Shown here: positions 1 through 16,238 of the stretch, piece by piece
Numbering within the stretch: the first letter of the stretch is position 1
Layout: the number at the start of each line of letters is the position of its first letter
Assembly: GCA_951813295.1 (NCBI GenBank)
Contig: CATOTI010000001.1
Coordinates: forward strand, 62,001 to 126,000
DNA from: an uncultured Pseudomonadales bacterium
GTDB lineage: Bacteria > Pseudomonadota > Gammaproteobacteria > Pseudomonadales > Azotimanducaceae
Direction: 5' to 3'
DNA length: 64,000 nucleotides
Position numbers and translations under genes: made by a program
Notes under the pieces: generated by a model
The model's input: only the letters and a program-made list of their open reading frames with translations
Told to the model about the DNA's origin: nothing
Database searches by the model: none

Positions 1-67
1 GCTTACTCAGGACCACAGGTGGGTTCGCCGCAGTGTTCAAACTCACCGATATGTTCACATTCGGCAT
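1..67 (-). CDS. Possible 5' end of a gene running off the left edge
   Basis: An ATG on the minus strand (bases 65-67) follows a purine-rich AAGGGGAAA ribosome-site-like stretch and opens 22 codons to the window edge without a stop. The peptide starts MPNVNISVSLN. It would lie downstream of, and co-directional with, TIR gene A. There are too few residues to recognise a family, and it may be chance. Bases 68-278 between this start and the end of gene A show no other coding or repeat signal that I can see. Confidence 0.3.
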   Translation of the reverse strand, partial: MPNVNISVSLNTAANPPVVLSK

Positions 68-278
68 CTTCGTTTCCCCTTTAGTTTTGCGGCCAATGCA
101 AGGTCGCCGCCCGTGAATCCACGCGCGTTGCGCTGCTCGAAATTACTGAAGGCTCAGTTGGCGCGCAAGCGAATCGGTCTCGCGGAAAACCCGATGCGAC
201 GACCACAACTGACGTCGAGCTTATTGGTGAAGTGTCTCGATGTAATCAGCGGCGTCGGTGCTGGATAGCGATGACCGA

Positions 279-2537
279 TCACTCGATCGGCGGAATCGTA
301 TCGCGGACGTTCGCGAACCAGTTCTGGACAAGCGTGAATGGCACGACGGGTGATTCGGTCAGCTTGACCATGAGGAGCGAGCCGTCGGGCGCGGCGTCGT
401 AGTTCGGTGCGCCCGGCGCGGTACGGTAGCCCCAGGTCAAGAAGTGAACGACGGCTTCGCCGCTCGGCGCGCCATCGACCATTGCGATGGACCTCAACTC
501 ATGCTCTGGATAATCAGTCCGGAAATAGAGCCGCCGCCCGGCAACACCCCAGATCGGGCGCGATCCTTTCCCGATCAGGATCGGCGGCGAGTCGTCATCG
601 ATGGTTTTTACATAGACGCCCGAAATGCCATTCGCGAAGGAGCTATAGGCGACGAGTCGATCATCCGGACTCACTCTGCCCGCGAACTTCGGCGAACCAT
701 CATCAGGAACAACAAGGTCGTATTCACCGGTCTCGAGGGAGAGTGAGACGACGGATGACCCGGCAAAGGTTACTGCGTCGTAGAGCAGGGTTTGTCCGTT
801 GCCTGTCGCGGCGGTAGCTCGGTGGTCTCCTTCAAGTGCGTGTATCTCAATCGGCTCGGTCATGCCGTGTGCGTCGATCCGATAGATGTCCGCATCGTCG
901 TCGACGCGCGAGAAGAAGAGCTCGGTTCCATCCGGGGTCCAGACGGGGCTACGAATATGACGTTCGTCTGCAAGGACTCGGCGTGAGTGCTTTTCGACTA
1001 TTGAGTACACGACGAGCGAGTCACCATCCCCGGGATCTTCCGCATCTAGAATGAACGCGATCTCCGTGCCGTCGGGCGAGATCCGAGGTTCGCGGTAGTA
1101 GTCCGGTGGCAGCGGTACGTTCGATTCGGTTCCGTTATCCGGGTCGATCCACACCAGGGTCGATTTGCGGTGTCCAGATGATAGGTGCCGCTGAACAAGG
1201 CGGTCGGTGGTTCGCGAGACGGATATCGGGAGGAGGTAACTGTCCACCTGGTGAATCGCGGCATGCGCGCCCAGGCGTTGCGTCGCGGCGTCGTATCGGG
1301 CGGCCAACAGATTGCGTCCGTCGGGCGAGAAGGCGACGAAATCATCCAGAAGGACGAACCCGGGAGCCGTCATTGCTCGCGGTGTGAGCAGCGGCGTGAT
1401 CGAACGATCGGCGGCGGAGTAGACCGCCAGACCGAACCGGAGCGTCGAGCCTTCTTGGACGTTCAGAAGAATATCGCCGTTTGGAAGAAATGATGGCCGG
1501 GTGTGGTGCTTTCCTTCCGTCGCTACTGTCAGAGCTGCGGCAAGCGACGAAAAGGTCGAGGCGGACTTGAGTCCCGGCGTCGACCAATCGGAGAAGACGA
1601 TTCGATCATCAGGTCCCCACGCCGCGCCATCGGCCCGAGCCCACCCCGACGGGATGTCGGTTGGAACGATCTCGATCGGGCCGCTGGTGCCATCGGTCCG
1701 GATGCGCATGTAGTCGCCATCACGAAGGTCTCGGTAACCGAGCCACTCGCCATCGGGCGATAAAAACGGGTCGACAACAAACTCCGCATCGAGCGGTAGT
1801 TCAATCGTTTCGGCGTTATCCAGGGAACGCGAAAAAAGGTGGTATTGGCGTCCGCGAAAAGCAAAGTAGACGAGCGTCTCGCCTTCCAAGAAAAACTCGT
1901 CGATCCGCTCCACGTCCGGCGGAACCTCGATCGTTGTTCGAACGATCGGTGGAATCGGGCGAGCGGGCTGCGCCTCGACCAGTTCTCCGCGAGCTCCGAA
2001 AAACCACCAAGCGGCGCTGGAAAGGCCGATCGCAAGCAGGACACTGAGAGCCATTGTTGGTGCTGAGAATCCCTGGACGACACGCACTGATTGCGCATCT
2101 GCCGTCCCACGATCGACATGCTCACTCACGCCTCGCAAGAGCTTAAGGCGATAGTCGCGCTCGCCGATCTCGTACTTAAAGATCGCTTGAATCGTGTTGA
2201 GCGACAGGCGGAGCCCGTCTGGGAGTTCGGTCGGTGCGAGGTGAACCGCGAGTAAGGGGCGTTCTTCCTCCAACGCAAAGTGCACTTCCCGCTGGCAATG
2301 CGGGCGTTCGACCGACGTCGGGGTTACAAAGAACAGCACGAGCGCCGCTCCAGCGATCGAGCGCGCCAGTTCGTCGCGCCATTCGGATCCAGGACTCAAT
2401 CCCTCGTCGTAGTAGACGTTGAAGCCCTGGTCGTGCAGCCACTGGATCTCGGGATAGACCTTGGCATCGTCGCCATGGGCATAGCTGACGAACACGTAAG
2501 GCTCGTCGCCCGAATACGCTGGGAAGGGCTTCTCCAT
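279..2537 (-). CDS. TIR domain - transmembrane helix - TolB-like beta-propeller protein (paralogue A)
   Basis: Predicted membrane receptor-like protein of 752 residues. Residues 10-125 form a TIR (TIR_2-type) domain: YVFVSYAH near residue 14, a YYDEGLSPGS loop, and a HCQREV motif whose Glu84 sits where TIR NADases carry the catalytic glutamate. A hydrophobic helix at about 160-180 follows, then about 550 residues of WD40-like/PD40 propeller with repeated SPDG turns, ending QNWFANVRDTIPPIE. There is no signal peptide, so the expected topology is TIR in the cytosol and propeller in the periplasm. I chose the ATG at 2537 because paralogues B and D start at the same MxKPF; a TTG 18 bases upstream is possible. 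The TIR is subtype 1 (like C) and the propeller class I (like B and D). It is transcribed away from B-E. NAD cleavage and signalling are inferred from the family. Confidence 0.85.
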   Translation of the reverse strand: MEKPFPAYSGDEPYVFVSYAHGDDAKVYPEIQWLHDQGFNVYYDEGLSPGSEWRDELARSIAGAALVLFFVTPTSVERPHCQREVHFALEEERPLLAVHLAPTELPDGLRLSLNTIQAIFKYEIGERDYRLKLLRGVSEHVDRGTADAQSVRVVQGFSAPTMALSVLLAIGLSSAAWWFFGARGELVEAQPARPIPPIVRTTIEVPPDVERIDEFFLEGETLVYFAFRGRQYHLFSRSLDNAETIELPLDAEFVVDPFLSPDGEWLGYRDLRDGDYMRIRTDGTSGPIEIVPTDIPSGWARADGAAWGPDDRIVFSDWSTPGLKSASTFSSLAAALTVATEGKHHTRPSFLPNGDILLNVQEGSTLRFGLAVYSAADRSITPLLTPRAMTAPGFVLLDDFVAFSPDGRNLLAARYDAATQRLGAHAAIHQVDSYLLPISVSRTTDRLVQRHLSSGHRKSTLVWIDPDNGTESNVPLPPDYYREPRISPDGTEIAFILDAEDPGDGDSLVVYSIVEKHSRRVLADERHIRSPVWTPDGTELFFSRVDDDADIYRIDAHGMTEPIEIHALEGDHRATAATGNGQTLLYDAVTFAGSSVVSLSLETGEYDLVVPDDGSPKFAGRVSPDDRLVAYSSFANGISGVYVKTIDDDSPPILIGKGSRPIWGVAGRRLYFRTDYPEHELRSIAMVDGAPSGEAVVHFLTWGYRTAPGAPNYDAAPDGSLLMVKLTESPVVPFTLVQNWFANVRDTIPPIE

Positions 2538-2665
2538 CCGCGTCGATCGTAGCAAACGATAGAGACGCTTCGCCCGTGCTCAAGGTTTGCCGCACTTCAA
2601 CCACGCCCGGCGCGCGTCACCGAATATCAATAAAAACACGGGTCCTTCCGATTTTCTGCCAATAG

Positions 2666-4615
2666 TGCTGCGCCCTCGTCATTGCGTTTCTCTTTATAGC
2701 GTCGAAAAGCGCTGCAACGACGCTATCGGTTGGTGAGCCACGTCGAGCCGATGTCGCTGGCGTCGTCGAGGTCGAGGTGGAGCTCGCTGCTGAACAGTTT
2801 GTCTACGCGGAAGTCGACCAGGTTGATGTTGACGTCTTGGTGAACGTTTTCGACCACGAAGGCGTGCTCGTGAACCGCTTCGACCAATCGAAACGAGGTA
2901 ACGAGCCGATTCAGTTCGAGACGAAGAAGACGGGGCTCTATCGGCTCGTCATCGAGCCGGTGGCCGAGGACGCAAATGGCTCAGTGGTCATCGAACTGGA
3001 AACGGCCGAGCCGGTTGCGACAGCGCCGGAAGCACGACTTGATCAGCTGCTTAGCCAGTTCAAAGGTGACGACACCCCCGGTGCGATCGTCGCCGTGATC
3101 AGGGGCGGCGAGATCGTGTACCTTCAAGCCGTCGGCATGGCGAACCTCCGGCACGGCATCCCGTTTCGTCGCGACACTGTGTCGAACATCGGGTCGGTAT
3201 CGAAACAGTTCACGGCGTTCGCGGTGATGTCTCTTGTCGATGCGGGCCTGGTCTCCCTCGACGATAACGTTCAGAAATACCTGCCGGAACTTCCCGAGTT
3301 CGACGAGATCGTGACCGTTCGACATCTCTTGAATCACACGAACGGCTATCGAGAGTTCCTCAACCTGCTTGGCATGGCCGGGCGCAAGATCTTCGAGGGT
3401 GACTATATTGGTCGCCACGAGGTTCTCGATATATTGGGTCGCCAACCGGAACTGCAGGATCCACCCGGGACCGTCTTCAACTACAACAATTCGGCTTTCA
3501 CTCTTGCTGCAACGCTGGTGGAAAGGGTCTCGGGGCAGCCACTAGCGGCGTGGCTTCAGAGCAACGTTTTCCAACGGCTCGACATGGAGCGGTCCATGTT
3601 GCGTTCACGGCTCGGTGAGATCGTCCCTAACGCAGCTGAGGGGTACGTCGTCGGCGACGAGTCGCCGTTTCGAGAGGCTGTCGATCTTGGCGGGGGCGGG
3701 GTACCGTCGCCGGGCCTGGCGGGATCTACACGACGGTCGACGATCTTGCTCGATGGATTCGCAACTACGCCGATCCGGTTGTTGGCAACAAAACGATCGT
3801 CGACGAGATGACGCGCTCGCAGATTCAGATGCCGGGCAAGGATCAACACTACGGTCTGGGTCTATTTCTTGGGACACATCGCGGCCTCCGTCAGGTCTCG
3901 CATGGCGGCGCAGACACCGCACACCGGGCCAGCATGCTCTATATACCCAGATATCGACGCGGCCGTCGTCGCCTTGAGCAACCACGGCAACTTTCCGGGA
4001 TCGATAGCTGTCGCCACCGCTGAAGCGTTTTTTGCCGAGTACTTTGATCCCGCAGATGATTCGTCCGTTGGCGACGTTCCCAGTGCAGCTGCGGTTGATG
4101 CCAGAGCGCTTGCTCGCTTCATGGGGGTGTATGAGCTTGAAACAGGTACCGCGATCGAATTCGAACTCGAGGGAAACGAGGTTCGCATCATTCCGACAAG
4201 TGGTGACCCGCTCCCCGTGGAGATTTTGAGCTCGATGAGCGTCCGTGTTCCCGGCGGTGTCATCGTCAAGTTCAATAATGTCGATGGGCATCTGGGACTC
4301 ACGCTCCCGAACGGTGTTGAAGGCGACCGGCTGCAACCTTGGCAGCCGACTGTCGGCGAACTGGCTGCTTTCGAGGGCCGCTACTTCAGCGATGAACTCC
4401 AGACGACCTACGTCTTTGAGGTCAAGGACCAGCGACTCGTCTTCAACCACGCGCGATTGGATGAGGTCGAGCTCCAGGCGAAGAAGAAAGACACCTTCAG
4501 CGGCGCATTCCCGTTGCTCGAGGCAGCGTTTGAACGAAACGACGAAGGCAAGGCAACCGGACTGACGGTATCTAGTGGCCGCACGAAGAACATTCGATTC
4601 TCGAGAGTTCCTTAA
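2666..4615 (+). pseudogene. Broken serine hydrolase (beta-lactamase/class C-like) gene
   Basis: Frame 2 encodes a PPC-like N-terminal segment and then a class C beta-lactamase/esterase fold, with SVSK as the SxxK nucleophile motif and YNN as YxN. Near 3697-3702, in a G-rich run, the homology leaves this frame (one base missing) and continues in frame 1 (GIYTTVDDLARW at 3721, through the HGG motif). Near 3946 one extra C returns it to frame 2 (DIDAAVVALSNHG), followed by a DUF3471-like tail. The unshifted frame meets a stop at 3809-3811. The start is also unclear: a signal-peptide-like stretch (CCALVIAFLFIASK, from 2666) lacks ATG, GTG or TTG, and the first usable codon is GTG at 2777. It lies divergent to A and upstream of B. 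Either a pseudogene or a gene with two sequencing indels. Confidence 0.8.
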
Positions 4616-4684
4616 CCTGCGAGACGGGTTGGACGTGGTTATCCGACCACCGAGGTTCGGCCGTCAGCACAAAGGCCGATGACG

Positions 4685-6952
4685 ATGGAGAAACCGTTTC
4701 CTGCCTACACCGGCGATGAGCTTTACGTCTTCGTCAGCTACGCCCATGCCGATGCAGACAAGGTCTACCCGGAGATTCAGTGGCTCCACGACCAGGGCTT
4801 TAACGTCTGGTACGACGAGGGAATAGAGCCCGGGTCAGTGTGGCGTGATGAGTTGGCACGGGCGATCGATGGTGCCGCGCTCTTTCTCTTCTTCGTTACA
4901 CCGATGTCGATTGGGCGGCCGCATTGCCTGCGGGAGGTGGCTTACGCGGTTGATCACGAGTTCCCGTTCCTGGCCATTCATCTAGAAGAGACCGACCTCG
5001 ATCCCGGCACCGAGCTCACGCTGAGTTCGATTCAAGCGATTCTGAAGTACGAAACACCCGAGCGGGCTTACCGTCAAAAGCTACTGCGATTTGCCACGCA
5101 GCACGTCGATCGTGGTGCTGCGGAAGTCCGCCCGGTGCGCCAGGTGCAGGGCTGGTCGACACGCAACGTGGCGGTCGCCTTGGTCACGTCCGCGGTAGTT
5201 CTCAGCGCGCTGAGTTGGTGGCTCGGAACGTCGTCCGTGCCAGTCGACGATTCGACGGATGAGGCTATTCCTGCGGTGGTCCGAACAACGATCGATATAC
5301 CCGATGACATAGAACGCATCGGCGGTTTCCGCTTGGAAGCTGAAACGTTGGTCTACTTTGGGTATCGAGACCGAAAACCTCGTCTCTTCACACGCTTTCT
5401 CGATTCGACCGAGACGATCGAACTACCGGTCGACGCAGAGTTCGCCCTATATCCCTTTTTGTCGCCGGATGGCCAGTGGGTCGGTTACCGGGATTTTCGC
5501 GACGGCGACTTCAAGCGGGTGCGAGCCGACGGCACGGGCGCGCCTATCGAGATCGTACCGACGGACATCGCGTCGGGCATGAGCGTGGACAGCGGCGTCG
5601 CTTGGGGCCCCGGCGATCGAATCGTGTTCTCAAATTGGACGACCGAGGGGCTCATGTCCGCAACGACCTCGTCATCGATTGCCGCCCCGCTGACTTTCGC
5701 GCCCGACGGTACGCGCCATGTCTTGCCTTCGTTCTTCTCGAACGGAGACGTACTCGTCAATGTCCGGGAAGGTTCGACGGGAGAGTTTGGCGTGGCGGTG
5801 TATTCAGCTCGCGACCAGCAGGTATTACCGCTTCTTGATCCACAGGCGACCACCAGCGGTGCGTTCATCTTACCCGGCAACCTAGTCGGTCTCAGTCCTG
5901 ACGGCGTCAACCTGATGGCCGGGCGCTACGACCCGGAGATGCGACGCCTCGGTACCCTTGTGTCGGTCTATCAGGTCGGTAGCAACCTGCGGCCCGTCGG
6001 ATACTCCACAACCACCGACCGAATCGTAGAACGCGAGCTACCCGCCGACTTCGGAAAGTCGCAGTTGGTATGGGTGGATGCGGCGACCGGTGAAGAGATA
6101 GAGCTGTCGTTGCCCGCCGACTACTACCGCGAACCGCGTCTTTCGCCGGACGGTACTGAGGTGGCGTTTGTGCTGGGCAACGACGATGACCCGGAGCCGG
6201 GCAACGCGCTCGTCATCTATTCGCTCACGCGAAAACAACTGAGGACGGTGCACACCGACACCCGATACCTCCGCAATCCCGTGTGGGCACCGGATGGCAA
6301 TGAGCTCTACTTTGGGATGTCTGACGAGAACACCGACATTTACCGTATCGACACTTACGGCGTATCCGGCCTGGTGGCGGTGTTGGTGCGCGACGGCATC
6401 CAATCGCCGACTTCAATATCCCCGGACGGACAGACCTTGTTTTACACCGACACCAACGCGATCGAGTTTCACATCAGTTCGCTCTCTCTAAGGAATCGTG
6501 AGTACGACAAAGTCGTCGAGAATGATGCGTCGATTTTCTTTGGCGCCATAAGCCCAGACGGCATGTTTCTAGCGTATTCGGATTGGACCGGCGGGATACC
6601 CCGCATCTACGTTAAGGATCTCGATGCTGGTACGGCGCCAAGTATCGTGGGTGCCGGTGCGATGCCGGTGTGGTCTCGCACGGGGACACGTCTGTATCAC
6701 AGAACTTTGGCCTCGAATGCCAAGCCCTTCGAGATGCGCTCGGTCGAAGTTATCAACGGGGCGCCTAGCCCGGATGCCACGATCCACTTTTCGACGTGGG
6801 ATCACCGGTACTACCCGGGCGGCCCAAACTACGCCGCCGCCGCCGACGGACGTCTCCTGATGGTCAAACGCATCGAGACGCCGGTGGTGCCGTTTACCTT
6901 GACCCAGAACTGGTTCGCCAATGTGCGCGACCAGATCCCGCCGATCGAGTAA
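4685..6952 (+). CDS. TIR domain - transmembrane helix - beta-propeller protein (paralogue B)
   Basis: First of four tandem plus-strand paralogues, 755 residues. The TIR domain (about 10-125) is subtype 2: WYDEGIEPGSVWR, then HCLREV with the putative catalytic Glu84. A juxtamembrane RPVRQVQGWST segment leads into a hydrophobic helix at about 160-182. The class I propeller carries PD40 blades such as FLSPDGQWVGYRDFRDGD and ends QNWFANVRDQIPPIE. ATG 4685 is preferred to ATG 4679 because AAAGG lies at good spacing and the start matches the paralogues. B and D are by far the most similar pair in the array, alike along their whole length, which suggests recent duplication. Expected topology is N-in, C-out. 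What the propeller senses and what the TIR makes are unknown. Confidence 0.85.
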   Translation: MEKPFPAYTGDELYVFVSYAHADADKVYPEIQWLHDQGFNVWYDEGIEPGSVWRDELARAIDGAALFLFFVTPMSIGRPHCLREVAYAVDHEFPFLAIHLEETDLDPGTELTLSSIQAILKYETPERAYRQKLLRFATQHVDRGAAEVRPVRQVQGWSTRNVAVALVTSAVVLSALSWWLGTSSVPVDDSTDEAIPAVVRTTIDIPDDIERIGGFRLEAETLVYFGYRDRKPRLFTRFLDSTETIELPVDAEFALYPFLSPDGQWVGYRDFRDGDFKRVRADGTGAPIEIVPTDIASGMSVDSGVAWGPGDRIVFSNWTTEGLMSATTSSSIAAPLTFAPDGTRHVLPSFFSNGDVLVNVREGSTGEFGVAVYSARDQQVLPLLDPQATTSGAFILPGNLVGLSPDGVNLMAGRYDPEMRRLGTLVSVYQVGSNLRPVGYSTTTDRIVERELPADFGKSQLVWVDAATGEEIELSLPADYYREPRLSPDGTEVAFVLGNDDDPEPGNALVIYSLTRKQLRTVHTDTRYLRNPVWAPDGNELYFGMSDENTDIYRIDTYGVSGLVAVLVRDGIQSPTSISPDGQTLFYTDTNAIEFHISSLSLRNREYDKVVENDASIFFGAISPDGMFLAYSDWTGGIPRIYVKDLDAGTAPSIVGAGAMPVWSRTGTRLYHRTLASNAKPFEMRSVEVINGAPSPDATIHFSTWDHRYYPGGPNYAAAADGRLLMVKRIETPVVPFTLTQNWFANVRDQIPPIE

Positions 6953-7006
6953 GCGCTGGCGCGTGTCGGCAACGCCGAAACTCAACTGACGTAGGCTGAG
7001 AACAAT

Positions 7007-7062
7007 CGAGCCGCGCTAACATTCGAACCGGAATCCACGCGAGTTGGGGATCTTGGACAAGC
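7007..7062 (+). repeat. Leader repeat copy 1, upstream of paralogue C
   Basis: The stretch beginning CGAGCCGCGCTAACATTCGAA and running into the first codons of paralogue C is nearly repeated upstream of paralogue E at 11742-11797. Both copies end at a TTG start context (GTTGGGxATCTTGGACAAG). Because the proteins differ downstream, the shared leader points to common descent of the 5' ends or to a conserved promoter/leader. I did not identify a confident -35/-10 pair. Confidence 0.6.
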
Positions 7063-9350
7063 CATTTGGTGCCTACACGGGCGACGAACCGTACGTTTTC
7101 GTCAGCTATGCCCACGCGGATTCGGCTGCGGTCTTCCCAGAGATTCAATGGCTGCACGACCAGGGTTTCAACGTCTACTACGACGAAGGCTTGAGCCCCG
7201 GTTCGGAGTGGCGCTATGAGTTGGCCCGCTCGATCCGCGAAGCGGCACTGGTGCTGTTCTTTGTCACGCCGACTTCGGTCGAGCGAACGCATTGCCAACG
7301 TGAAGTGCACTTTGCCTTGGAGGAGGAACGCCCTGTCCTCGCGGTCCACCTCGAAGAGACCGAACTTCCGGACGGCCTACGCCTGTCACTCAATACAATC
7401 CAAGCGATTCTCAAGCACAAGACGAGTGAGCGCGACTACCGTCGGAAGCTACTGCGCGTCGCGACGCAACATGTCGATCGTGGGGCTGCGGAACTGCGGC
7501 CCGTACAGCAGGTTCAGGGATGGTCGACGACAACGCTCATCGCGTTGGTTGTCGCGTCCACATTGCTTGTTGGTGGAAGCGTTTGGTGGCTCGGACAGTC
7601 GACCCCGGGCGCTGCGACCGCGGGTGTTTCCTCGACGCAGCAGGAGGTTTTCAACCCGGACAGCAGTGTTCTTCGGACGTTCGTACCGATCCCCGATGGC
7701 ACTGAGCACCTTCCCGCGTTACGGCAATTCCGAATCTCGGACGACGGTACCCAAGTCGCTTTTCTTGGTCGCGATAGCGAACGTAAGACCGAACTTTTCG
7801 TTTGGGATCGAAGTCAATTCGAAGCGACGTGGATCGATATCGGAGATGACGTCCCACACTTTCCATTCTGGTCACCTGACGGCAACTGGGTGGGTTACCG
7901 AAACCTTCGCGACGGGGACTACAAGAAGGTCGCCGTTGCCGGTGGTCCGCCTGTTCGGATCGGTGAATCCGGTTACGGTGAGGCGATAGCCAATGGTTTC
8001 GGGGTCACTTGGGCGCCGGACGGTTACGTGTATTTCAGCAATGATGTTTTGCACGGGGTGCAAAGAATTCCTTCCGACCAAGGTGAGCGCACCGCGGTCA
8101 CCGCGCCTCCTGAAGGCTGTTCGGACTGGGGTGTCGAATATTTGGCTGAGTTGGCCGCACTCATTGTTGGGCGGCTTTGTACAGAGTTCACATGGGGTGA
8201 CCGGTCGCGAAATATTGTCGGGGTTGACCTTGCGACGGGTCGCGAGACGGTCATCGTCGAAAACGCGGATCGGCCGCATCGGGTGGGACCGTTTCTCGTG
8301 TACCGGCACTACAGCGCTTACTGGGCGGCTCGATTTGATGCTGAGAGCCTTTCGCTAACGAGCGAACCTTCGTTAGTCATTCCGGTCGGGCTGGCCGCCT
8401 GGTTCGATATTTCTTCCCGTGGTGACATCGTCTTTTTACGGACAGAACCGGAGAACGTGAGAACGTTGGTTCGTGTCGATACGGACGGGGTCGAGTCACC
8501 GATCGAGGGGTTGGAACCGTTTGCGAATCTTGTCTCGCCGCGGATTTCGCCGGACGGTGATCAAATCGTCTTCGCGGCAAGAGATGAGAGATCGCGGCCC
8601 AGCCTCTGGCTGTACGACGGTGTCGCCAAACGCCGGTTTCGCCTGACCGACGACGAGCGGGGTCGTGGTTGGCCAGTCTGGAATCCAGAAGGCACGCGAG
8701 TCGCCACGGCACGCGCAGAGGACCCCGCGACGTTTTCGATCACCAGTGTTGCGGTTGACGGGCTCGGTGAAGAAGAAACGCTTGTACTGGTCGAAGGCGA
8801 GCGATTTCTACCTCATCACTGGACAACCGGTGGCGAGATCTTAGCTACGCGATCATGGTCTTCCGAGGCTGCGAACACTGATTTGGTGCGACTCGCAGTC
8901 GCGTCTGGCGAACTGCGAGCGTTGATTGCGACGGAACACTCTGAGGCTCACGCGACATTGTCTCGATCATCTCGATGGCTCGCGTATGAATCGACCCGTT
9001 CAGGCGACACCAACATCTTTGTCCGGCCGTTTCTGAAACTGGATGGCGGCCGAGCACGGATCTCCGATGCGAGCGCTGGGATCCCGGTTTGGTCCAAGAG
9101 TCGTGAAGACGTTCTCTACTACCGCACGGCGAGCGGCGGGTTGATCGAAGCGACGCTCGACGTCGCCGAGGGCGCGCGGGTGCTGTCGCGGCGAGAGATC
9201 TTCGACGATAGGGACTATCTGTTGGCTTATGACGTCGGCCCGGACGGCCGGTTCGTATTCGTTAAGCCGAGTAACGATGAGCCGGAACCCATTGCCTATG
9301 TGCAGAACTGGATCGCCGAACTCGAGGAGCAAGTTCCCGCCGCTGAGTAA
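7053..9350 (+). CDS. TIR domain - transmembrane helix - beta-propeller protein (paralogue C)
   Basis: 765 residues. The TIR domain is subtype 1, matching A: YYDEGLSPGSEWR and HCQREVHFALEEERP, with Glu84 in the catalytic position. The membrane helix (about 160-182) ends GGSVWWLG. The propeller is class II: it starts VPIPDGTEHLPALRQFRISDD, contains SPDGNWVGYRNLRDGDYKKV, and ends YVQNWIAELEEQVPAAE. This is very like the extracytoplasmic propellers of receptor-type Ser/Thr kinases. I used TTG 7053 because DKPFGAY aligns with the starts of B and D; TTG 7044 is an alternative. It begins 100 bases after B and ends 49 before D, so co-transcription is plausible. No ATG start is available, which may limit expression. 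Confidence 0.83.
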   Translation: MDKPFGAYTGDEPYVFVSYAHADSAAVFPEIQWLHDQGFNVYYDEGLSPGSEWRYELARSIREAALVLFFVTPTSVERTHCQREVHFALEEERPVLAVHLEETELPDGLRLSLNTIQAILKHKTSERDYRRKLLRVATQHVDRGAAELRPVQQVQGWSTTTLIALVVASTLLVGGSVWWLGQSTPGAATAGVSSTQQEVFNPDSSVLRTFVPIPDGTEHLPALRQFRISDDGTQVAFLGRDSERKTELFVWDRSQFEATWIDIGDDVPHFPFWSPDGNWVGYRNLRDGDYKKVAVAGGPPVRIGESGYGEAIANGFGVTWAPDGYVYFSNDVLHGVQRIPSDQGERTAVTAPPEGCSDWGVEYLAELAALIVGRLCTEFTWGDRSRNIVGVDLATGRETVIVENADRPHRVGPFLVYRHYSAYWAARFDAESLSLTSEPSLVIPVGLAAWFDISSRGDIVFLRTEPENVRTLVRVDTDGVESPIEGLEPFANLVSPRISPDGDQIVFAARDERSRPSLWLYDGVAKRRFRLTDDERGRGWPVWNPEGTRVATARAEDPATFSITSVAVDGLGEEETLVLVEGERFLPHHWTTGGEILATRSWSSEAANTDLVRLAVASGELRALIATEHSEAHATLSRSSRWLAYESTRSGDTNIFVRPFLKLDGGRARISDASAGIPVWSKSREDVLYYRTASGGLIEATLDVAEGARVLSRREIFDDRDYLLAYDVGPDGRFVFVKPSNDEPEPIAYVQNWIAELEEQVPAAE

Positions 9351-9399
9351 CGAATGGCTCGGCTAGCGCGAGGGTCCACTACGCTAGACTTCCGCCGCG

Positions 9400-11667
9400 A
9401 TGGATAAGCCCTTTGCCGCCTACGCGGGCGATGAACCGTACGTTTTCGTCAGCTATGCCCATGCCGATGCAGACAGGGTCTTCCCAGAGATTCAGTGGCT
9501 GCACGAGCAGGGTTTCAACGTCTGGTACGACGAGGGGATCGAGCCCGGAAGCGTGTGGCGTGATGAGTTGGCCCGAGCGCTCGATGGTGCCGCACTCTTT
9601 CTCTTCTTCGTCACGCCAACGTCGATTGATCGTCCCCACTGCGTACGCGAGGTGGCGTACGCGGTTGATCACGAGTTCCCGTTCCTCGCCATTCATCTAG
9701 AAGAGACTGACCTCGATCCTGGTATTGAACTCACGCTGAGTTCGATCCAAGCGATCCTCAAGTACGACACGCGCGAGCGGGCGTACCGCCAGAAGCTCTT
9801 GCGTTTTGCGACACAGCACGTTGATCGCGGTGCGGTCGAGGTCCGTCCGGTACGGCAGATGCAAGGTTGGTCGACGAGCAAGGGTGCCCTCGTCGTCGTC
9901 ATATCCGTTGTATCGATGAGCGCACTAACCTGGTGGCTAGCAGCCTCCGTGCCCCTGGAAACCCCGAATGATGGGGCGATCCCCGCGGTCGTTCGAACCA
10001 CGATCGATATCCCCGATGACATCGAACGCATCGGCGGGTTCCGCTTGGAAGCTGAAACGCTGGTCTACTATGGGTATCGCGACCGCGAACGACGTCTCTT
10101 TACGCGCTTCCTTTATTCCACAGAGACGATCGATTTACCGGTCGATGCAGAGTTCGCCCTTCGTCCCTTCTTGTCCCCAGACGGTAAGTGGGTCGGCTAC
10201 CGGGATCTTCGCGACGGCGACTTCAAGCGGGTGCGGGCCGACGGCACGGGAGCACCCATCGAGATCGTTCGTACCGACATCGCGTCGGGTATGAACGTGG
10301 ACGGCGGCGTTGCGTGGGGCCCCGATGACCGCATCGTTTTCTCGAATATCACGACCGCGGGGCTCATGTCCGCGACGACTTCGTCATCGCTTGCCGTACC
10401 GCTGACCTTCGCATCCGACAGCAAGAGACATGCCTGGCCCTCGTTCTTCGCGAACGGCGACATACTCATCAATGTCCAAGAGGTGGGTGCAACGCAAGTG
10501 TTGGGCGTCGCGGTGTACTCAGCTCGCGACCAGCAGGTGTTGCCGCTTCTTGAACCGCAGCCAACCACCAGCGGCGCCTTTGTCCTGCCCGGCAACCTGG
10601 TCGGTCTCAGCCCTGACGGGGTGAACCTGATGGCAGGGCGGTATGATCCGGAGACGCAACGGCTCGGCTCCTTGGTACCGGTCTATCAGGTCGGTAGCAA
10701 CCTGCGGCCCATTGCGCACTCCGCGACCACCGACCGATTCGTCGAACGCGAGCTACCGGCCGACTTCGGTAAGTCCCAGTTGGTGTGGGTGGACCCGGCG
10801 ACCGGCGAAGAGACCGAGCTGTCCTTACCGCTCGACTATTACCGAGAACCGCGTCTTTCGCCGGACGGTACCGAGGTCGTCTTTGTGTTGGGTAACGACG
10901 ATGACCCGGAGCAGGGCAACGCGCTCGTCGTTTATTCACTCACCCGGAAGCAACTGAGGACGGTGCACACCGACACCCGATACCTGCGCAATCCCGTGTG
11001 GTCGCCGAATGGCAATGAGCTCTACTTCGGGATGGCGAACGAGGATGACGACATTTACCGTGTCGACGCTTACGGCGTATCCGATCTGGTCGAAATATTG
11101 GTGCGCGACGGCTACCAATCGCCGACGTCGATATCGCCGGATGGACGGACTTTGTATTACAACGACATCCACGCGATCGAGTTTCACATCAGTTCGCTCT
11201 CTCTAGAGAATCGTGAGTACGACAAAGTCGTCGAGAACGATGCGTCGAATTACTTTGGCACCATAAGCCCCGACGGCATGCTCCTAGCGTATTCGGCTTG
11301 GATCGACTCGGTACCCCGAATCTACGTTAAGGATCTCGAAACGGACGCGGCACCACTTGTTGTGGGCGCGGGCGCATCGCCAGTCTGGTCTCGCACGGGG
11401 ACACGCTTGTACCACGGAACTCTGGACTCAAATGCTAAGCCCTTCGAGATGCGCTCGGTCGAAATTATCGACGGGGAGCCGAGCTCGGACATCACGACCC
11501 ACTTTTCAGTTTGGGACTACCGGTACTACCCGGGCGGTCCGAACTACGACGCCGCCGCGGACGGGCGTCTCCTGATGGTCAAACGCGTCGAAACGCCAGT
11601 GGTGCCGTTTACCTTGACCCAGAACTGGTTTGCCAACGTGCGCGACCAGATCCCGCCAATTGAGTAA
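9400..11667 (+). CDS. TIR domain - transmembrane helix - beta-propeller protein (paralogue D)
   Basis: 755 residues, the close twin of paralogue B along the whole protein. The TIR is subtype 2 (WYDEGIEPGSVWRDEL, HCVREV with Glu84), with juxtamembrane RPVRQMQGWST and a helix at about 160-180. The class I propeller ends QNWFANVRDQIPPIE. The start is an unambiguous ATG, MDKPFAAYAGDEPYVF. Differences from B are scattered substitutions with no frame damage, so both copies appear to be maintained. It lies 49 bases after C and 120 before E. TIR-derived NAD-based signalling is a family expectation and is not demonstrated here. Confidence 0.85.
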   Translation: MDKPFAAYAGDEPYVFVSYAHADADRVFPEIQWLHEQGFNVWYDEGIEPGSVWRDELARALDGAALFLFFVTPTSIDRPHCVREVAYAVDHEFPFLAIHLEETDLDPGIELTLSSIQAILKYDTRERAYRQKLLRFATQHVDRGAVEVRPVRQMQGWSTSKGALVVVISVVSMSALTWWLAASVPLETPNDGAIPAVVRTTIDIPDDIERIGGFRLEAETLVYYGYRDRERRLFTRFLYSTETIDLPVDAEFALRPFLSPDGKWVGYRDLRDGDFKRVRADGTGAPIEIVRTDIASGMNVDGGVAWGPDDRIVFSNITTAGLMSATTSSSLAVPLTFASDSKRHAWPSFFANGDILINVQEVGATQVLGVAVYSARDQQVLPLLEPQPTTSGAFVLPGNLVGLSPDGVNLMAGRYDPETQRLGSLVPVYQVGSNLRPIAHSATTDRFVERELPADFGKSQLVWVDPATGEETELSLPLDYYREPRLSPDGTEVVFVLGNDDDPEQGNALVVYSLTRKQLRTVHTDTRYLRNPVWSPNGNELYFGMANEDDDIYRVDAYGVSDLVEILVRDGYQSPTSISPDGRTLYYNDIHAIEFHISSLSLENREYDKVVENDASNYFGTISPDGMLLAYSAWIDSVPRIYVKDLETDAAPLVVGAGASPVWSRTGTRLYHGTLDSNAKPFEMRSVEIIDGEPSSDITTHFSVWDYRYYPGGPNYDAAADGRLLMVKRVETPVVPFTLTQNWFANVRDQIPPIE

Positions 11668-11741
11668 GCCCTGGCGCAAGGGCAGAGCCCACCATCGTTG
11701 ACGCCGGCTGAAATCGATCCTAGGTCGAGCGGAGAGCACCG

Positions 11742-11797
11742 CGAGCCGCGCTAACATTCGAACTGGAACTGACACGAGTTGGGAATCTTGGACAAGC
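11742..11797 (+). repeat. Leader repeat copy 2, upstream of paralogue E
   Basis: Second copy of the leader found at 7007-7062. It begins CGAGCCGCGCTAACATTCGAA and ends at the TTG start of paralogue E. The sequence 5' of it (TTGACGCCGGCTGAAATCGATC) also resembles that before copy 1, apart from an extra block of about 21 bases. Together with the closeness of B and D, this supports duplication of a two-gene B-C unit to give D-E. Confidence 0.6.
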
Positions 11798-13986
11798 CCT
11801 TTAACGCCTACACGGGCGATGAACCGTACGTGTTCGTCAGTTACGCCCATGCCGATGCAGACACGGTCTTCCCCGAGATTCAGTGGCTGCACGAGCAGGG
11901 CTTTAACGTCTGGTACGACGAGGGGATCGAGCCCGGGTCAGTTTGGCGCGATGAGTTGGCACGAGCGATCGATGGTGCCGCGCTCTTTCTCTTCTTCGTT
12001 ACGCCGTCCTCGATTGGGCGCCCGCACTGCCAACGTGAGGTCGCCTACGCCGTCGATCACGGCTTTCCATTCCTTGCCGTCCATCTTGAAAAGACTGACC
12101 TCGACCCCGGCACGGAACTGACGCTGAGCGTCATCCAGGCGATTCTCAAGTACGAGACGAATGAGCGCGAGTACCGACGCAAGCTGCTGAGCTTCGCAGG
12201 CCAACACCTCGAGCGCGGGGTTGCCGTGCAATCCCCCGGTGCTCGGCCGATCAACCGGGTTCTGCTGATCATTGCGGGTGCTGTGGTTGCCGGGCTCGCT
12301 GGGGCGCTGGTCCTACGAGATTCGTCCGATGTGGTCGCGTTGACATCGCCATCACTGCCGACGCGGGTCACCGTGCCGATGCCGGACTCGGTCATCTTGT
12401 CCCGGCTCCCACACAGTTTCGCCATCTCTGACGATGGCAGCACCGTCGTTTTTCGATCCGAAGAACGGAACCTACCGCTCTATATTTGGCGGCGCGATCA
12501 GCTACGAGCTGAACGCCTCGACACAGGTGACGACTTGCCGCATCAGCCTTTCCTTTCGCCCGATGGCGCTTGGGTTGGATACAGAGATGCGCGTTTTGGC
12601 GAGTACAAGCGGCTGCGTCGGAAAGCAGGTTCGAGGCCCGTTCGCGTCGGCCCGTCAGGCATTGCCCCTCGGCGCATCTTCTACGAAAGTCCGGTCTGGA
12701 CAGCCCGGGATCGCATCATCTTCAGCAACCCGTCGCATCGTGGGCTGCAGACGATCGATGTAGACGGAGGAAGGTCTGCTACACCACTGACCGATGCGGA
12801 TGATTCGCACAACTATCCGGAGCTGGTGGGCGACGACAATCTTGTCTATTCCACTCGCGACGACGGCGCGTGGTACGTCGTCTCGCATGATCTGCGCAAC
12901 AACGAAACGCGCCGCCAGACGCAGGGCGAATGGCCCCAGATTGCTGGCGAATTCCTTCTCTTCATCCGTGATCGGCAGCTTTGGGCCGCGCGCTTCGACC
13001 GTGGGTTGCTCACCATGACGACCGATGCGGTGCCTGTGCTGACCGTAGGTGCGGTCGGTTTTGCGGACGTTTCGGCGAGCGGCGACTTGCTCTACCTCGA
13101 GGGTGATGACGCGACGGTGCAATTGGTTTGGGTCGATCAGGATGGCCGTGAAGAGCTTTTGCCTTTACCGGCGGACCGATACCTTCACCCGCGTGTCTCC
13201 CCAGACGGTCGTCACATCGCCATGGTGGTTGAGGACGATGACAGCTTTAGCATTTGGACGTACGACATCCAATCAGGATCGCGGCGTTTGCTGGTCCGAT
13301 CACCCGATCGGCTAGCCGGTCCTGTATGGAGCCCCGACGGCAGCCAGATAGCGTACGAGGACTATGACTCCGTCAAGTTGATCTCGGTGTTAGGTTCATC
13401 GGTTGTCACACCACTAGCGACGCCGGCAATGAGGGATTACCGGCCGGTTCAATGGCACGACGACGGACTGATTCTTGTCGAGGCAAGTGCGGGCCGGCGG
13501 CCACTGATTGTCGACGCGGATTCGGAAGAGTTCGCCGAGATCGACCATCCATACTCTGGAGACGCGGGCGGCCAGCGGTTGTCGCCCGATGGAAATTGGC
13601 TGTCCTACATGGTGAGTACGTCTGGGGAATCTGAGATTCATGTCAGCTCGTCCCCCACTTTCGATGATTCGGTGCAAGTTTCCGAATCGGGCGGTTGGCG
13701 CCCCTTGTGGAATCACGACAGCCGCGAAATCTACTACTTCAAACGAACAGGCTTTGGCCAAGGCTCGATGTACGCGGCAGAAGTCACGGGTGATAACGAG
13801 AATCCCATAGGTTCTCCGCGTCGACTTTTCTCCGGCGACTACTTAATCCAAAGGTTCGGTCGGAACTACGACTTAGCCTCGGACGGTCGGTTCCTGATGG
13901 TGCGGACACCAACCAGCGAGCCCACTCTCGTCTATGTTCAGAATTGGCTCGCCGAGATCGAAGAACTCGTTCCGCGAGCCGAATAA
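11788..13986 (+). CDS. TIR domain - transmembrane helix - beta-propeller protein (paralogue E)
   Basis: 732 residues, last of the array. The TIR is subtype 2, matching B and D (WYDEGIEPGSVWRDEL, HCQREVAYAVDH, Glu84). The juxtamembrane part differs (QSPGARPINRVLL), the helix is at about 160-180, and the propeller is class II, like C but well diverged. Blades include FLSPDGAWVGYRDARFGEYKR, and the end is YVQNWLAEIEELVPRAE. So E joins the B/D-type TIR to the C-type propeller. The start is TTG 11788 by alignment of DKPFNAY; TTG 11779 is the alternative. A stem-loop lies downstream, before the convergent acyl-CoA dehydrogenase gene. Confidence 0.83.
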   Translation: MDKPFNAYTGDEPYVFVSYAHADADTVFPEIQWLHEQGFNVWYDEGIEPGSVWRDELARAIDGAALFLFFVTPSSIGRPHCQREVAYAVDHGFPFLAVHLEKTDLDPGTELTLSVIQAILKYETNEREYRRKLLSFAGQHLERGVAVQSPGARPINRVLLIIAGAVVAGLAGALVLRDSSDVVALTSPSLPTRVTVPMPDSVILSRLPHSFAISDDGSTVVFRSEERNLPLYIWRRDQLRAERLDTGDDLPHQPFLSPDGAWVGYRDARFGEYKRLRRKAGSRPVRVGPSGIAPRRIFYESPVWTARDRIIFSNPSHRGLQTIDVDGGRSATPLTDADDSHNYPELVGDDNLVYSTRDDGAWYVVSHDLRNNETRRQTQGEWPQIAGEFLLFIRDRQLWAARFDRGLLTMTTDAVPVLTVGAVGFADVSASGDLLYLEGDDATVQLVWVDQDGREELLPLPADRYLHPRVSPDGRHIAMVVEDDDSFSIWTYDIQSGSRRLLVRSPDRLAGPVWSPDGSQIAYEDYDSVKLISVLGSSVVTPLATPAMRDYRPVQWHDDGLILVEASAGRRPLIVDADSEEFAEIDHPYSGDAGGQRLSPDGNWLSYMVSTSGESEIHVSSSPTFDDSVQVSESGGWRPLWNHDSREIYYFKRTGFGQGSMYAAEVTGDNENPIGSPRRLFSGDYLIQRFGRNYDLASDGRFLMVRTPTSEPTLVYVQNWLAEIEELVPRAE

Positions 13987-14054
13987 ACGTGCCCAGCGCC
14001 TAGTTTGGCTGCGTTTTTGCTGGTTTGTTTTTACGGGTGGAAAAGTCGGGATGC

Positions 14055-14084
14055 GTGACGCGGCGGGCTGACATTCGCCGTCAC
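14055..14084. terminator. Stem-loop between convergent genes
   Basis: GTGACGCGGCG and CGCCGTCAC form a stem with one bulged C around a 10-base loop. It lies between the stop of paralogue E and the stop of the convergent acyl-CoA dehydrogenase gene. There is no T-run on either side, so if it terminates transcription it is not a classic intrinsic terminator. Confidence 0.3.
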
Positions 14085-14092
14085 CTCCTGCC

Positions 14093-15331
14093 TCACGCCT
14101 CCGGGTACTTTTCCAACGCCACCTGACCAACATATCGACGAATATCCGTCGCCGCATGCGGTTGCATGAACGGACCCGCGCGGACGTCACGGTACAGCCG
14201 ACTCAAGGGATTGGCGGTCATGAATCCGCCCCCGCCGGCGAGATCCAATGCCTGGTCGACGATGGCGATAGCGCCTCGGTTCACGGTCCACTTGGCGGCC
14301 TGGTACGACTGCATTAGCTGGTGAGCCGATTCGATTGTCGGCGGGGTGGACTTGGCGGCGTTGAGCCAGTCGTCGACGTCACGGCCGGCTTGCAGGAGCG
14401 TTGCGCGGCAGCGGCGGTATTCGATTTCGAGTTCGCCTGCCGTTTGCTGGAATCCGGGGGAGTCTGCGACGGATTCGCCGAGTCGTTTCTGGTTGGCGGC
14501 GGCATCGAGGGCGATTGCGCGGGCGTGCTGCGCGATGCCGAAAAACGCGCCGACCAGCGTCAGGTTGCCGAGCGTTCTGCTGACGAGCGAGCCGATGCTC
14601 CAGCGCCCCCACGGGCCGAGTCTTCGCACGGCGGACGGCGCGACTTCGACGTCGTTCAGTTTCACCGACTGACTACCGGAACCGCGCATGCCGAGTGCGT
14701 CCCAGTCGTTTTGCGGCTCGATGCCGGCGGTGTCGATGGGCAGCATCGTCGTCGCGAGGTGGTCGCCTTCATCGTCTTGCATGCGCAGATTCATCGCGAG
14801 GTGGGTCGCGATCGGCGACATCGTGACGAACATTTTGTGGCCGTTGATGCGCCAACCGGTTTCGGTGCGTGTCGCGGTGGTCATCGGGTGCAGGTTGTCG
14901 GTACCGCGTTCGGTTGCGGTTGCGCAGATGAGCATCTTGCCGTCGACCACGGCGCGCAGCGGGGCCGCCGGTCTGTCTGTGGAGCGGCCGGCTCGCTCCG
15001 CCTGGTACCAGGCGTCTGCCATGCCGCGGGTCACGCCGAGGTGCATGTTGATGGCGATCGCTGTTGATCCGTCACCCGTGGCGAGGGTCGCGATGCCGAC
15101 GAGCCAGTCATGCACCGATTGGAGGCCGAAGCCGCCGAGTGATGCCGGCACGAAGGCGCTCGAGAAGCCGGTTCGAACCAGGGTCTCGAAGTTTTCCGGG
15201 TTCATGACGCCGTCGCGATCGGCCGCCTCGGCGTTGTCGCGCAATACCGGAACGGACTGTCGGGCGGCGTCGACGAACTGCTCACCGGCGGCGGTCAGCG
15301 GTGCCAGTTCATCGCTCGATGTCGCTCCCAT
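14093..15331 (-). CDS. Acyl-CoA dehydrogenase-family flavoprotein
   Basis: 412 residues with acyl-CoA dehydrogenase fold features: an N-terminal helical domain containing GFSSAFVPASLGGFG, a middle beta region (GHKMFVTMSPIATHLAM) and a C-terminal helical bundle ending with SRLYRDVRAGPFMQPHAATD. The C-terminal half resembles flavin-dependent monooxygenase/HpaB-DszC-like members as much as true dehydrogenases, so the substrate is open. ATG 15331 is chosen because GGAGG lies five bases upstream; ATG 15349 would put that site inside the gene. It is probably FAD- or FMN-binding and cytosolic. It converges on the TIR array and I see no operon partner. Confidence 0.8.
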   Translation of the reverse strand: MGATSSDELAPLTAAGEQFVDAARQSVPVLRDNAEAADRDGVMNPENFETLVRTGFSSAFVPASLGGFGLQSVHDWLVGIATLATGDGSTAIAINMHLGVTRGMADAWYQAERAGRSTDRPAAPLRAVVDGKMLICATATERGTDNLHPMTTATRTETGWRINGHKMFVTMSPIATHLAMNLRMQDDEGDHLATTMLPIDTAGIEPQNDWDALGMRGSGSQSVKLNDVEVAPSAVRRLGPWGRWSIGSLVSRTLGNLTLVGAFFGIAQHARAIALDAAANQKRLGESVADSPGFQQTAGELEIEYRRCRATLLQAGRDVDDWLNAAKSTPPTIESAHQLMQSYQAAKWTVNRGAIAIVDQALDLAGGGGFMTANPLSRLYRDVRAGPFMQPHAATDIRRYVGQVALEKYPEA

Positions 15332-15409
15332 ATTGGCCTCCGCTGGCATGATCGATTCCGCGTCGGAGGCTCGCTGGAAAGCTGGTCGGCGTCAAACGCT
15401 CGCTGAGCG

Positions 15410-15703
15410 CTAGTCGAACTCGAGAACCGCCCAAGGCAGCGCGAGCGCCAGGAGGCCGAGGGCGGCGGCGATCTCGATCTGTGCGGCGGGGAGGCCGACC
15501 ACGATGAAGTCGGAAAGCCCCCACAGTGAGGCCACACCGCCGAGTACCACGGCACTGGCGAGTACAGCTTTTCGCTTGAGTTCCTCGCGGCGTATCTTCG
15601 CCGTGACGGCGGAGGCAAAGCTCGGGTCGTGAGGCGCATCTTCGGCAAGAAGATCCATCAGGTGCTGATCGGCGGGTCCGGTCGTCGCGGGGCGATCATT
15701 CAT
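15410..15703 (-). CDS. Small membrane protein, probable anti-sigma factor
   Basis: 97 residues: a charged cytosolic N-terminal part (about 1-45), then two hydrophobic segments (about 47-67 and 73-92). Its ATG overlaps the end of the ECF sigma gene by eight bases, the usual coupling of a sigma factor with its anti-sigma. No zinc-binding HxxxCxxC motif is present, so it would belong to a non-ZAS membrane type. The function is inferred from position and topology only. Confidence 0.6.
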   Translation of the reverse strand: MNDRPATTGPADQHLMDLLAEDAPHDPSFASAVTAKIRREELKRKAVLASAVVLGGVASLWGLSDFIVVGLPAAQIEIAAALGLLALALPWAVLEFD

Positions 15704-16238
15704 GCTGATTTCTCCTTCGACGTTCGTTCTCGGACTCGAGCGTCGCGTTGATGCGCGCCTTGGCGCGGTGCAGACGGGACTTGACGGTCCCCGCCGTACT
15801 GCCGACGGCTTCCGCGGCTTCGGCCGTGGTGAGCCCGGCGGCGTAGACCAGAACCAACAAGGTTCGATCGATCGGCTCGACGAGATCGAGTAATTCGGCC
15901 AACTCGAGCGACGCGGGCGGTTCTGAAGGCGACGGCGTCCCGTGGGCGCTCATCGACTCGTCGCGTAGCGTTCGTGCGTAACGGCGCTCGACGCCCGCTC
16001 GGCGTTCCACCATCAGAAACTCGCGATACGCGATGCGCGATAGCCACGCGCCGAACCGCCCGTTTCCCTTGTAGTCGGCGAGGTTTCGCCACGCACGCAG
16101 GAACGCGTTCTGGGCCAGGTCGTCGGCGAGGTGAGCGTCTTTCGAGAGGTGCCTCAGCATGCGGCGAAGGCGACCTTCGTGGCGCTCGACGAGAAGAGAG
16201 AACGCACGCTGATCGCGACGCGACAGAACGCGCGCCAC
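15696..16238 (-). CDS. RNA polymerase sigma factor, ECF (sigma-70) family
   Basis: About 180 residues. Region 2 is visible as AFSLLVERHEGRLRRMLRHL and DLAQNAFLRAWRNLADYKG, including the usual DLxQxxFLRAW signature. Region 4 is TLLVLVYAAGLTTAEAAEAVG followed by TVKSRLHRAKARI, a helix-turn-helix. Redirects RNA polymerase to a dedicated regulon. The start is uncertain: GTG 16238 is the first standard codon that keeps region 2, but homology seems to extend slightly upstream to EKDDDL. An ATT at 16259 overlapping the preceding gene's TGA would give that extension. It is the middle gene of a three-gene operon with the DUF6249-like gene upstream and the anti-sigma candidate downstream. Confidence 0.88.
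   Translation of the reverse strand: MARVLSRRDQRAFSLLVERHEGRLRRMLRHLSKDAHLADDLAQNAFLRAWRNLADYKGNGRFGAWLSRIAYREFLMVERRAGVERRYARTLRDESMSAHGTPSPSEPPASLELAELLDLVEPIDRTLLVLVYAAGLTTAEAAEAVGSTAGTVKSRLHRAKARINATLESENERRRRNQHE

Follow-up and report, generated by a model that had tools for sequence, protein, structure and literature searches.

A tandem array of five TIR–propeller genes whose TIR heads and propellers have different genealogies

We analyzed a 64,000-nucleotide stretch of DNA (the window) from an uncultured Pseudomonadales bacterium, corresponding to C1:62001-126000 of a 5.97 Mb assembly in three contigs (GCA_951813295.1). Five intact open frames at the left of the window, genes A to E, encode TIR–transmembrane–propeller proteins with the same domain order. 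Their TIR and propeller genealogies are incongruent, their TIR domains are mosaic and show excess similarity, and Asp44 and Glu84 are conserved. These features are probably explained by a lineage-specific array of single-pass membrane TIR receptors, in which the sensors diverge while gene conversion copies stretches of the TIR head. The parts are ordinary but their state is unusual: heads have been exchanged within the TIR while the sensors diverged.

Each of the five proteins (735–768 residues) has a TIR_2 domain followed by a single hydrophobic helix (near residue 162) and then by a PD40 region, and genes B to E are separated by gaps of 49–111 bases (Table 1). In all five, TIR_2 (PF13676; 61.1–64.5 bits versus 28) and PD40 (29.5–46.6 bits versus 20.9) scored above the Pfam cut-offs. 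The initial annotation, made from the sequence alone, had described five such paralogues with a putative catalytic Glu84, two TIR subtypes (A and C versus B, D, and E), and two propeller classes (class I in A, B, and D; class II in C and E). All five genes are indeed present, and the motifs it quoted for the subtypes and classes were found as written. The glutamate is kept throughout, as residue 84 in A (from the Met), B (from the second Met), and D, and as residue 87 in C and E when numbering begins at the longer start.

In a TIR tree of 64 rows, kept after length filters and removal of repeats, A and C grouped at 100/96, apart from B, D, and E. In a 23-row tree of propellers, the split of A, B, and D from C and E was supported at 100/100 and 98/95, D was the sister of B, and all five propellers formed one group at 89/85. 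Both divisions are thereby borne out, and "every pairing in one locus" is a fair description of the four combinations. Class II is loose, with 31% identity between C and E over 527 columns, and its C-terminal NW...EL..xVP ending is more widespread in the propeller family, as in a protein with a Ser/Thr kinase head (locus L126). We considered denying class II the status of a class because of this low identity, but dropped the idea given the 98/95 support for C+E.

Approximately unbiased (AU) tests indicate that the two trees are incongruent beyond chance. In a codon alignment of TIR columns 41–120 (residues 38–117 of A, B, and D), the three best trees pair A with C, and the best three trees without this pair were rejected (pAU 1.6e-4 to 4.8e-4). 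In the propellers, C is paired with E by each of the three best trees, and the best tree with A+C was rejected (pAU 1.6e-5); when only the first half of this region was used, the result was weaker (pAU 0.0175). Third codon positions of columns 41–120 also favored A+C, with rejection of the best C+E tree (pAU 0.0055), which is not what convergence of residues would give. In columns 1–40, first and second positions favored C+E and rejected A+C (pAU 0.003), and third positions were uninformative. Since columns 1–40 and 41–120 disagree, the TIR itself holds two histories. The disagreement between the TIR and propeller genealogies supports the view that heads and sensors have recombined.

Most of the TIR subtype signal comes from columns 41–120, which hold 38 of the 42 sites uniting A and C (76 informative sites in all). 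Gene C resembles D, not A, before column 41, and resembles A in columns 41–120 (permutation p 5e-5 versus A/D and 1.5e-4 versus A/B); it is mixed after column 120, where residues 135–157 are nearer B (86%) and D (77%) than A (45%). Gene D resembles E at its start and B later (permutation p 0.002). These triplet tests treat sites as exchangeable. At least two genes, C and D, are mosaic, and the detectable switches lie inside the TIR, near columns 40 and 120. The initial annotation had proposed a reshuffling of sensor and TIR effector, with breakpoints near the membrane helix. Recombination between head and sensor stands, but a cut at the helix is not supported, because the detected switches fall within the TIR; the pattern is that of gene conversion, with TIRs alike and sensors diverging. 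The helix and linker have diverged among the five (12–29%; B–D 55%). In the simplest history, the genes would have descended as whole units, ((A,(B,D)),(C,E)), with a minimum of two or three conversion tracts superimposed on the TIR.

An account without recombination, in which the TIR evolves slowly and its two subtypes are old or convergent forms, can draw on two observations. For 44 of the 45 pairs listed, the TIRs were nearer to each other than the propellers were, and the subtype differences are mostly replacements: in columns 41–120, the proportion of replacement differences (pN) was 0.05 for A–C versus 0.23 for A–B, at similar proportions of synonymous differences (pS; 0.58 versus 0.60). 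The AU tests, third positions included, largely contradict this account, as does the comparison with other genomes. Among 33 between-genome pairs with propeller distance >2 (25 own–other and 8 of 10 other–other pairs; two nearer pairs, at 0.41 and 1.77, were left out), the TIR/propeller distance ratio was 0.23–0.66. In the seven own pairs with distance >2 it was 0.07–0.24, and six of these seven ratios lie under the minimum of the between-genome set. The pairs are not independent of one another, and the comparison was made without L172, which yielded no frame, and without L125 and L127, which were aligned but belong to another TIR group. Moreover, the synonymous divergence (dS) between B and D is 0.48 in the propeller yet 0.84 in the TIR, about as far as either is from the TIR of E (0.97 and 0.82). 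Copying explains the TIR similarity better than slow evolution alone, and we regard an absence of recombination as very improbable.

Under modular shuffling, ready-made TIR cassettes, each a head with its promoter, would have been joined to unrelated propellers at breakpoints close to the membrane helix. This would account for the presence of TIR heads on several unrelated tails and of the propeller family behind several heads, and also for the 5′ leader upstream of the start that C and E, by eye, have in common. However, the five propellers form one group, albeit only at 89/85, so that the fusion probably predates the array; the switch points were detected within the TIR; and columns 1–40, at first and second positions, favor C+E as the propellers do. 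Modular shuffling is thus unlikely.

The breadth of these combinations was apparent from 91 deduplicated TIR matches (one repeat of A omitted), of which 54 had tails of at least 200 residues. Clustering of the tails by sequence gave groups of 36, 9, 4, and 2 and three singletons, which were named by Pfam analysis of nine proteins. The largest group is FlgO/TPR-like (two representatives; FlgO itself slightly below cut-off), the group of nine has PD40 propellers and includes A–E, the group of four has FGE-sulfatase domains with hydrolase-like ends (two representatives), and the group of two has an AAA_16 ATPase (one representative). The singleton tails are an alpha/beta hydrolase, an FGE-sulfatase, and a Ser/Thr kinase with WD40. 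Similarly, the propeller family follows a Ser/Thr kinase in L126 (from Pfam) and L131 (from reading), another TIR group in L125, L127, and L128, a multi-helix head in L145, L147, and L150 (from reading), and an apparent leader alone in L149, L154, and L156 (from reading). As side observations, a Ser/Thr kinase and WD40 propellers are fused to this head in one 1409-residue protein (L099:2229-6455), and the same head accompanies FGE-sulfatase domains in L067, L073, and L075. An FGS domain is mentioned in the literature on conflict systems, and we take it to be the FGE-sulfatase fold. MoxR–vWA ternary conflict systems are described as having MoxR ATPase and vWA gene partners (PMC7159879).

The TIR head was detected at E 1e-25 in at least 29 of 206 genomes of the bacterial family, many of them fragmented assemblies, with at most 18 candidates scored per genome. 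At the same threshold it was found in none of the 15 other genomes of the genus, one of which gave a weak match at 3e-11. Of 369 genomes drawn from the class, one had it, namely the window's own. A pattern-based contig scan gave 37 loci, including ones named Opitutales, Parvularculaceae, Acidobacteria, and Oscillospiraceae, indicating that the head is not confined to the bacterial family. As to the initial annotation's view that no described system has this layout, single TIR–transmembrane–PD40 proteins occur in other genomes (L054, L057, L142, L146, and L163), but no second tandem of five turned up: among the matches listed, from up to 18 candidates per genome and many fragmented assemblies, contigs of the remaining 28 positive genomes carried two at most. 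A tandem pair in genome G017 was set aside because it looks like a plain duplicate whose second copy is broken.

In the predicted structure of B, the propeller region forms two propellers, the first modelled with less confidence, and propellers took up the whole list of structure-search matches. With PD40 repeats and a TolB propeller fold, these domains belong with TolB-like propellers. They differ from TolB itself in carrying a membrane helix and a TIR, and the four proteins scanned (A, B, C, and E) fell far below the equivalog cut-off of TIGR02800 (NCBIfam), with 48.8–70.2 of 343.15 bits. The TIR would be cytoplasmic and the propellers periplasmic. We envisage an N-terminal TIR head, probably NAD-cleaving, joined by one helix to a propeller pair whose putative ligand is a peptide or protein; once it binds, the receptors would cluster and their TIRs would be switched on. 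The five genes would have arisen by duplication, followed by very far divergence of the sensors, and conversion between neighboring genes would have copied TIR stretches, leaving one interchangeable output to serve the different sensors.

Asp44 and Glu84 are invariant in all 64 TIRs, including heads on very different tails, which argues for an enzyme. As in NAD-cleaving TIRs, the glutamate lies in helix alpha-C and the aspartate in strand beta-B. By contrast, the WxxxE motif of these enzymes is replaced by HxxxE in all five proteins, and over the 64 TIRs the W position is H in 32, N in 23, Y in 6, W in 2, and F in 1. A PDB search with a five-row TIR profile gave no match at 1e-4, and a 20-row profile matched 65 solved sequences, the best being 7uxr (a bacterial TIR protein), 7ylf (the TIR of a Toll-like receptor), and two Tir/AbTIR chains (7uwg; 8g83, named NAD(+) hydrolase). 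AbTir-type NADases (8g83) are thus among the nearest solved structures. The Glu of their WxxxE aligns with Glu84, and the Asp of VWYDE, which probably corresponds to AbTir D167, aligns too; they differ in having Trp where His stands here, and the present TIRs have a membrane receptor context. The equivalent Trp is reported to be required for the activity of AbTir but not of TcpC and to be linked to cyclic ADP-ribose products (PMC11374754). We lean slightly toward NAD cleavage as the putative activity of these heads. Because the Trp linked to cyclic products is replaced here by His, we expect, with modest confidence, plain ADP-ribose rather than a cyclic isomer.

The closest analogy that we found is the mammalian TLR1/TLR6 pair. 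There, gene conversion is reported to preserve the likeness of the two receptors over most of the TIR, and the remaining sensor part diverges (Kruithof 2007, PMC2077338); in both cases, tandem paralogues of membrane receptors would have a TIR kept alike by conversion. The converted region described there includes the membrane helix and the last repeats, whereas the helix and linker have diverged here. Toll-like receptors have a leucine-rich ectodomain, a transmembrane segment, and a C-terminal TIR, and the present proteins, with a propeller sensor and an N-terminal TIR, are not members of that class; common descent is not claimed beyond the TIR fold. Closer in build are the Ser/Thr kinase–PD40 proteins (L126 and L131), in which a homologous C-terminal propeller follows a signalling head that is a kinase instead of a TIR. 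M. tuberculosis PknD likewise has a signalling head followed by a C-terminal propeller, but its NHL propeller is of a different family. A bacterial counterpart of a Toll-like receptor cluster, with varied periplasmic sensors, one conversion-kept TIR output, mixed complexes of paralogues, and a shared, NAD-derived and possibly non-cyclic response to phage or neighbor contact, is a speculative and rather doubtful extension of this analogy. If the proposed array is real, it would represent an independent arrival at a TLR1/TLR6-type arrangement, and it makes testable the question of whether one common TIR output constrains the evolution of a receptor family. A further prediction is that NAD cleavage by this TIR group does not yield the cyclic product tied to the missing Trp.

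A role in defence is conceivable, and we hold it only tentatively. The suggestion of a defence locus did not gain ground: PADLOC matches of A–E were weak, and the ten neighbors scanned at 1e-5 had no match. The TIRs of A, C, and E show a weak profile likeness to ThsB of Thoeris (PADLOC E 1.6e-4 to 0.006), but these proteins have a propeller and a membrane helix, and no ThsA-like gene, which in Thoeris is adjacent to ThsB, was present among the 12 neighbors scanned. Bacterial TIR defence proteins such as those of Thoeris and the CBASS TIR effectors act inside the cell.

Several observations weigh against an array of membrane receptors with conversion-copied TIR heads. Slow TIR evolution accounts for part of the similarity; two of the five triplet tests found no structure (p 0.22 and 0.70); columns 121–160 do not choose between trees in the AU test; and synonymous divergence in the common tracts is already about 1, so that the exchanges are old and the tract ends blurred. 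The topology is based on one hydrophobic helix and a charge bias, which is clear in B and D and weak or absent in A and C, and the helix and linker of B were modelled with low confidence. The genome record lists 7.4% contamination. No defence partner was found by PADLOC among the neighbors scanned, ten at 1e-5 and two more at 0.01. Among the solved matches, a Toll-like receptor TIR ranks second and MyD88 lower, so that the profile does not single out NADases, and with the Trp of WxxxE replaced by His80, activity may be lost or changed. This loss fits a TIR that is a non-enzymatic adaptor in ordinary environmental or envelope-stress sensors, without a role in defence, a possibility compatible with gene conversion. 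The TolB-like propeller and the FlgO/TPR and kinase analogues resemble general sensor designs, and the neighboring genes are mostly metabolic (by Pfam or reading), which point the same way. The invariance of Asp44 and Glu84 across such different tails argues otherwise, as does the occurrence of the same head with an AAA_16 ATPase tail and with kinase–WD40, and we consider an adaptor somewhat unlikely.

The genome contains nine TIR_2 matches in total, five of them A–E. A truncated copy (C1:600783-601682 and L011:2883-4683) combines a TIR that has an in-frame stop with part of a class I propeller, and close to it lies an integrase-like frame. At C3:169319-169741 (L010:4173-4742), a propeller-like end motif follows the TIR directly, which looks like an in-frame deletion of the sensor, and C2 carries a broken TIR piece. 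Directly left of A, about 600 bases away and in the same orientation, lies a TIR–TPR gene of another TIR group (C1:59660-61654; L009:13664-15655). In the 64-row tree, the seven family TIRs included form one clade against the 57 others (97/97). We read the array and remnants as a probable birth and death of genes within one lineage. As a genome-wide probe, PD40 missed all five genes at E 0.001. Apart from one 29-base match, the right flank of the locus is absent from the other 15 genomes of the genus, and no empty site is demonstrable there.

Table 1. Positions of the five genes and associated features in the window
Feature	Position	Strand	Remark
Gene A: TIR subtype 1, transmembrane, class I double propeller	279..2555	-	Met start probably at 2537
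Tract of A common with C (residues 38-117, alignment columns 41-120)	2187..2426	-	
Serine hydrolase, disrupted frame, between A and B	2777..4615	+	Within locus, not part of receptor
Gene B: TIR subtype 2, transmembrane, class I double propeller	4679..6952	+	Structure modelled
TIR head of B, residues 1-150, including Asp44 and Glu84	4685..5134	+	
Membrane helix of B, about residues 162-182	5168..5230	+	Basic residues before, acidic after
Two tandem TolB-like propellers of B, about residues 199-451 and 454-741	5270..6949	+	
Gene C: mosaic TIR, transmembrane, class II double propeller	7044..9350	+	
A-like tract within TIR of C (alignment columns 41-120)	7164..7403	+	
Gene D: TIR subtype 2 (E-like at its start, then B-like), transmembrane, class I double propeller	9400..11667	+	
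Gene E: TIR subtype 2, transmembrane, class II double propeller	11779..13986	+	

Purifying selection was evident between B and D. Along this pair, replacements are relatively frequent in the second propeller, at about residues 520–660. Positive selection in the sensor was considered and dropped, as the pN/pS ratio peaks at 0.55 (residues 601–660) and a permutation test for an excess of replacements (p 0.04) is too weak for such a claim. Promoter and terminator scans gave no excess over shuffled sequences, Rfam gave no match in positions 1–16000, and no tRNA was found. The disrupted serine hydrolase consists of a PF00144 part followed by a part with a weak DUF3471 match; a weak match to DUF3471 was also seen at the end of a TIR–TPR protein of another genome (L062). 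The GC content is 58.8–59.8% in the seven 2-kb windows up to 14 kb, and 60.7–65.0% beyond gene E, with one window at 58.8%.
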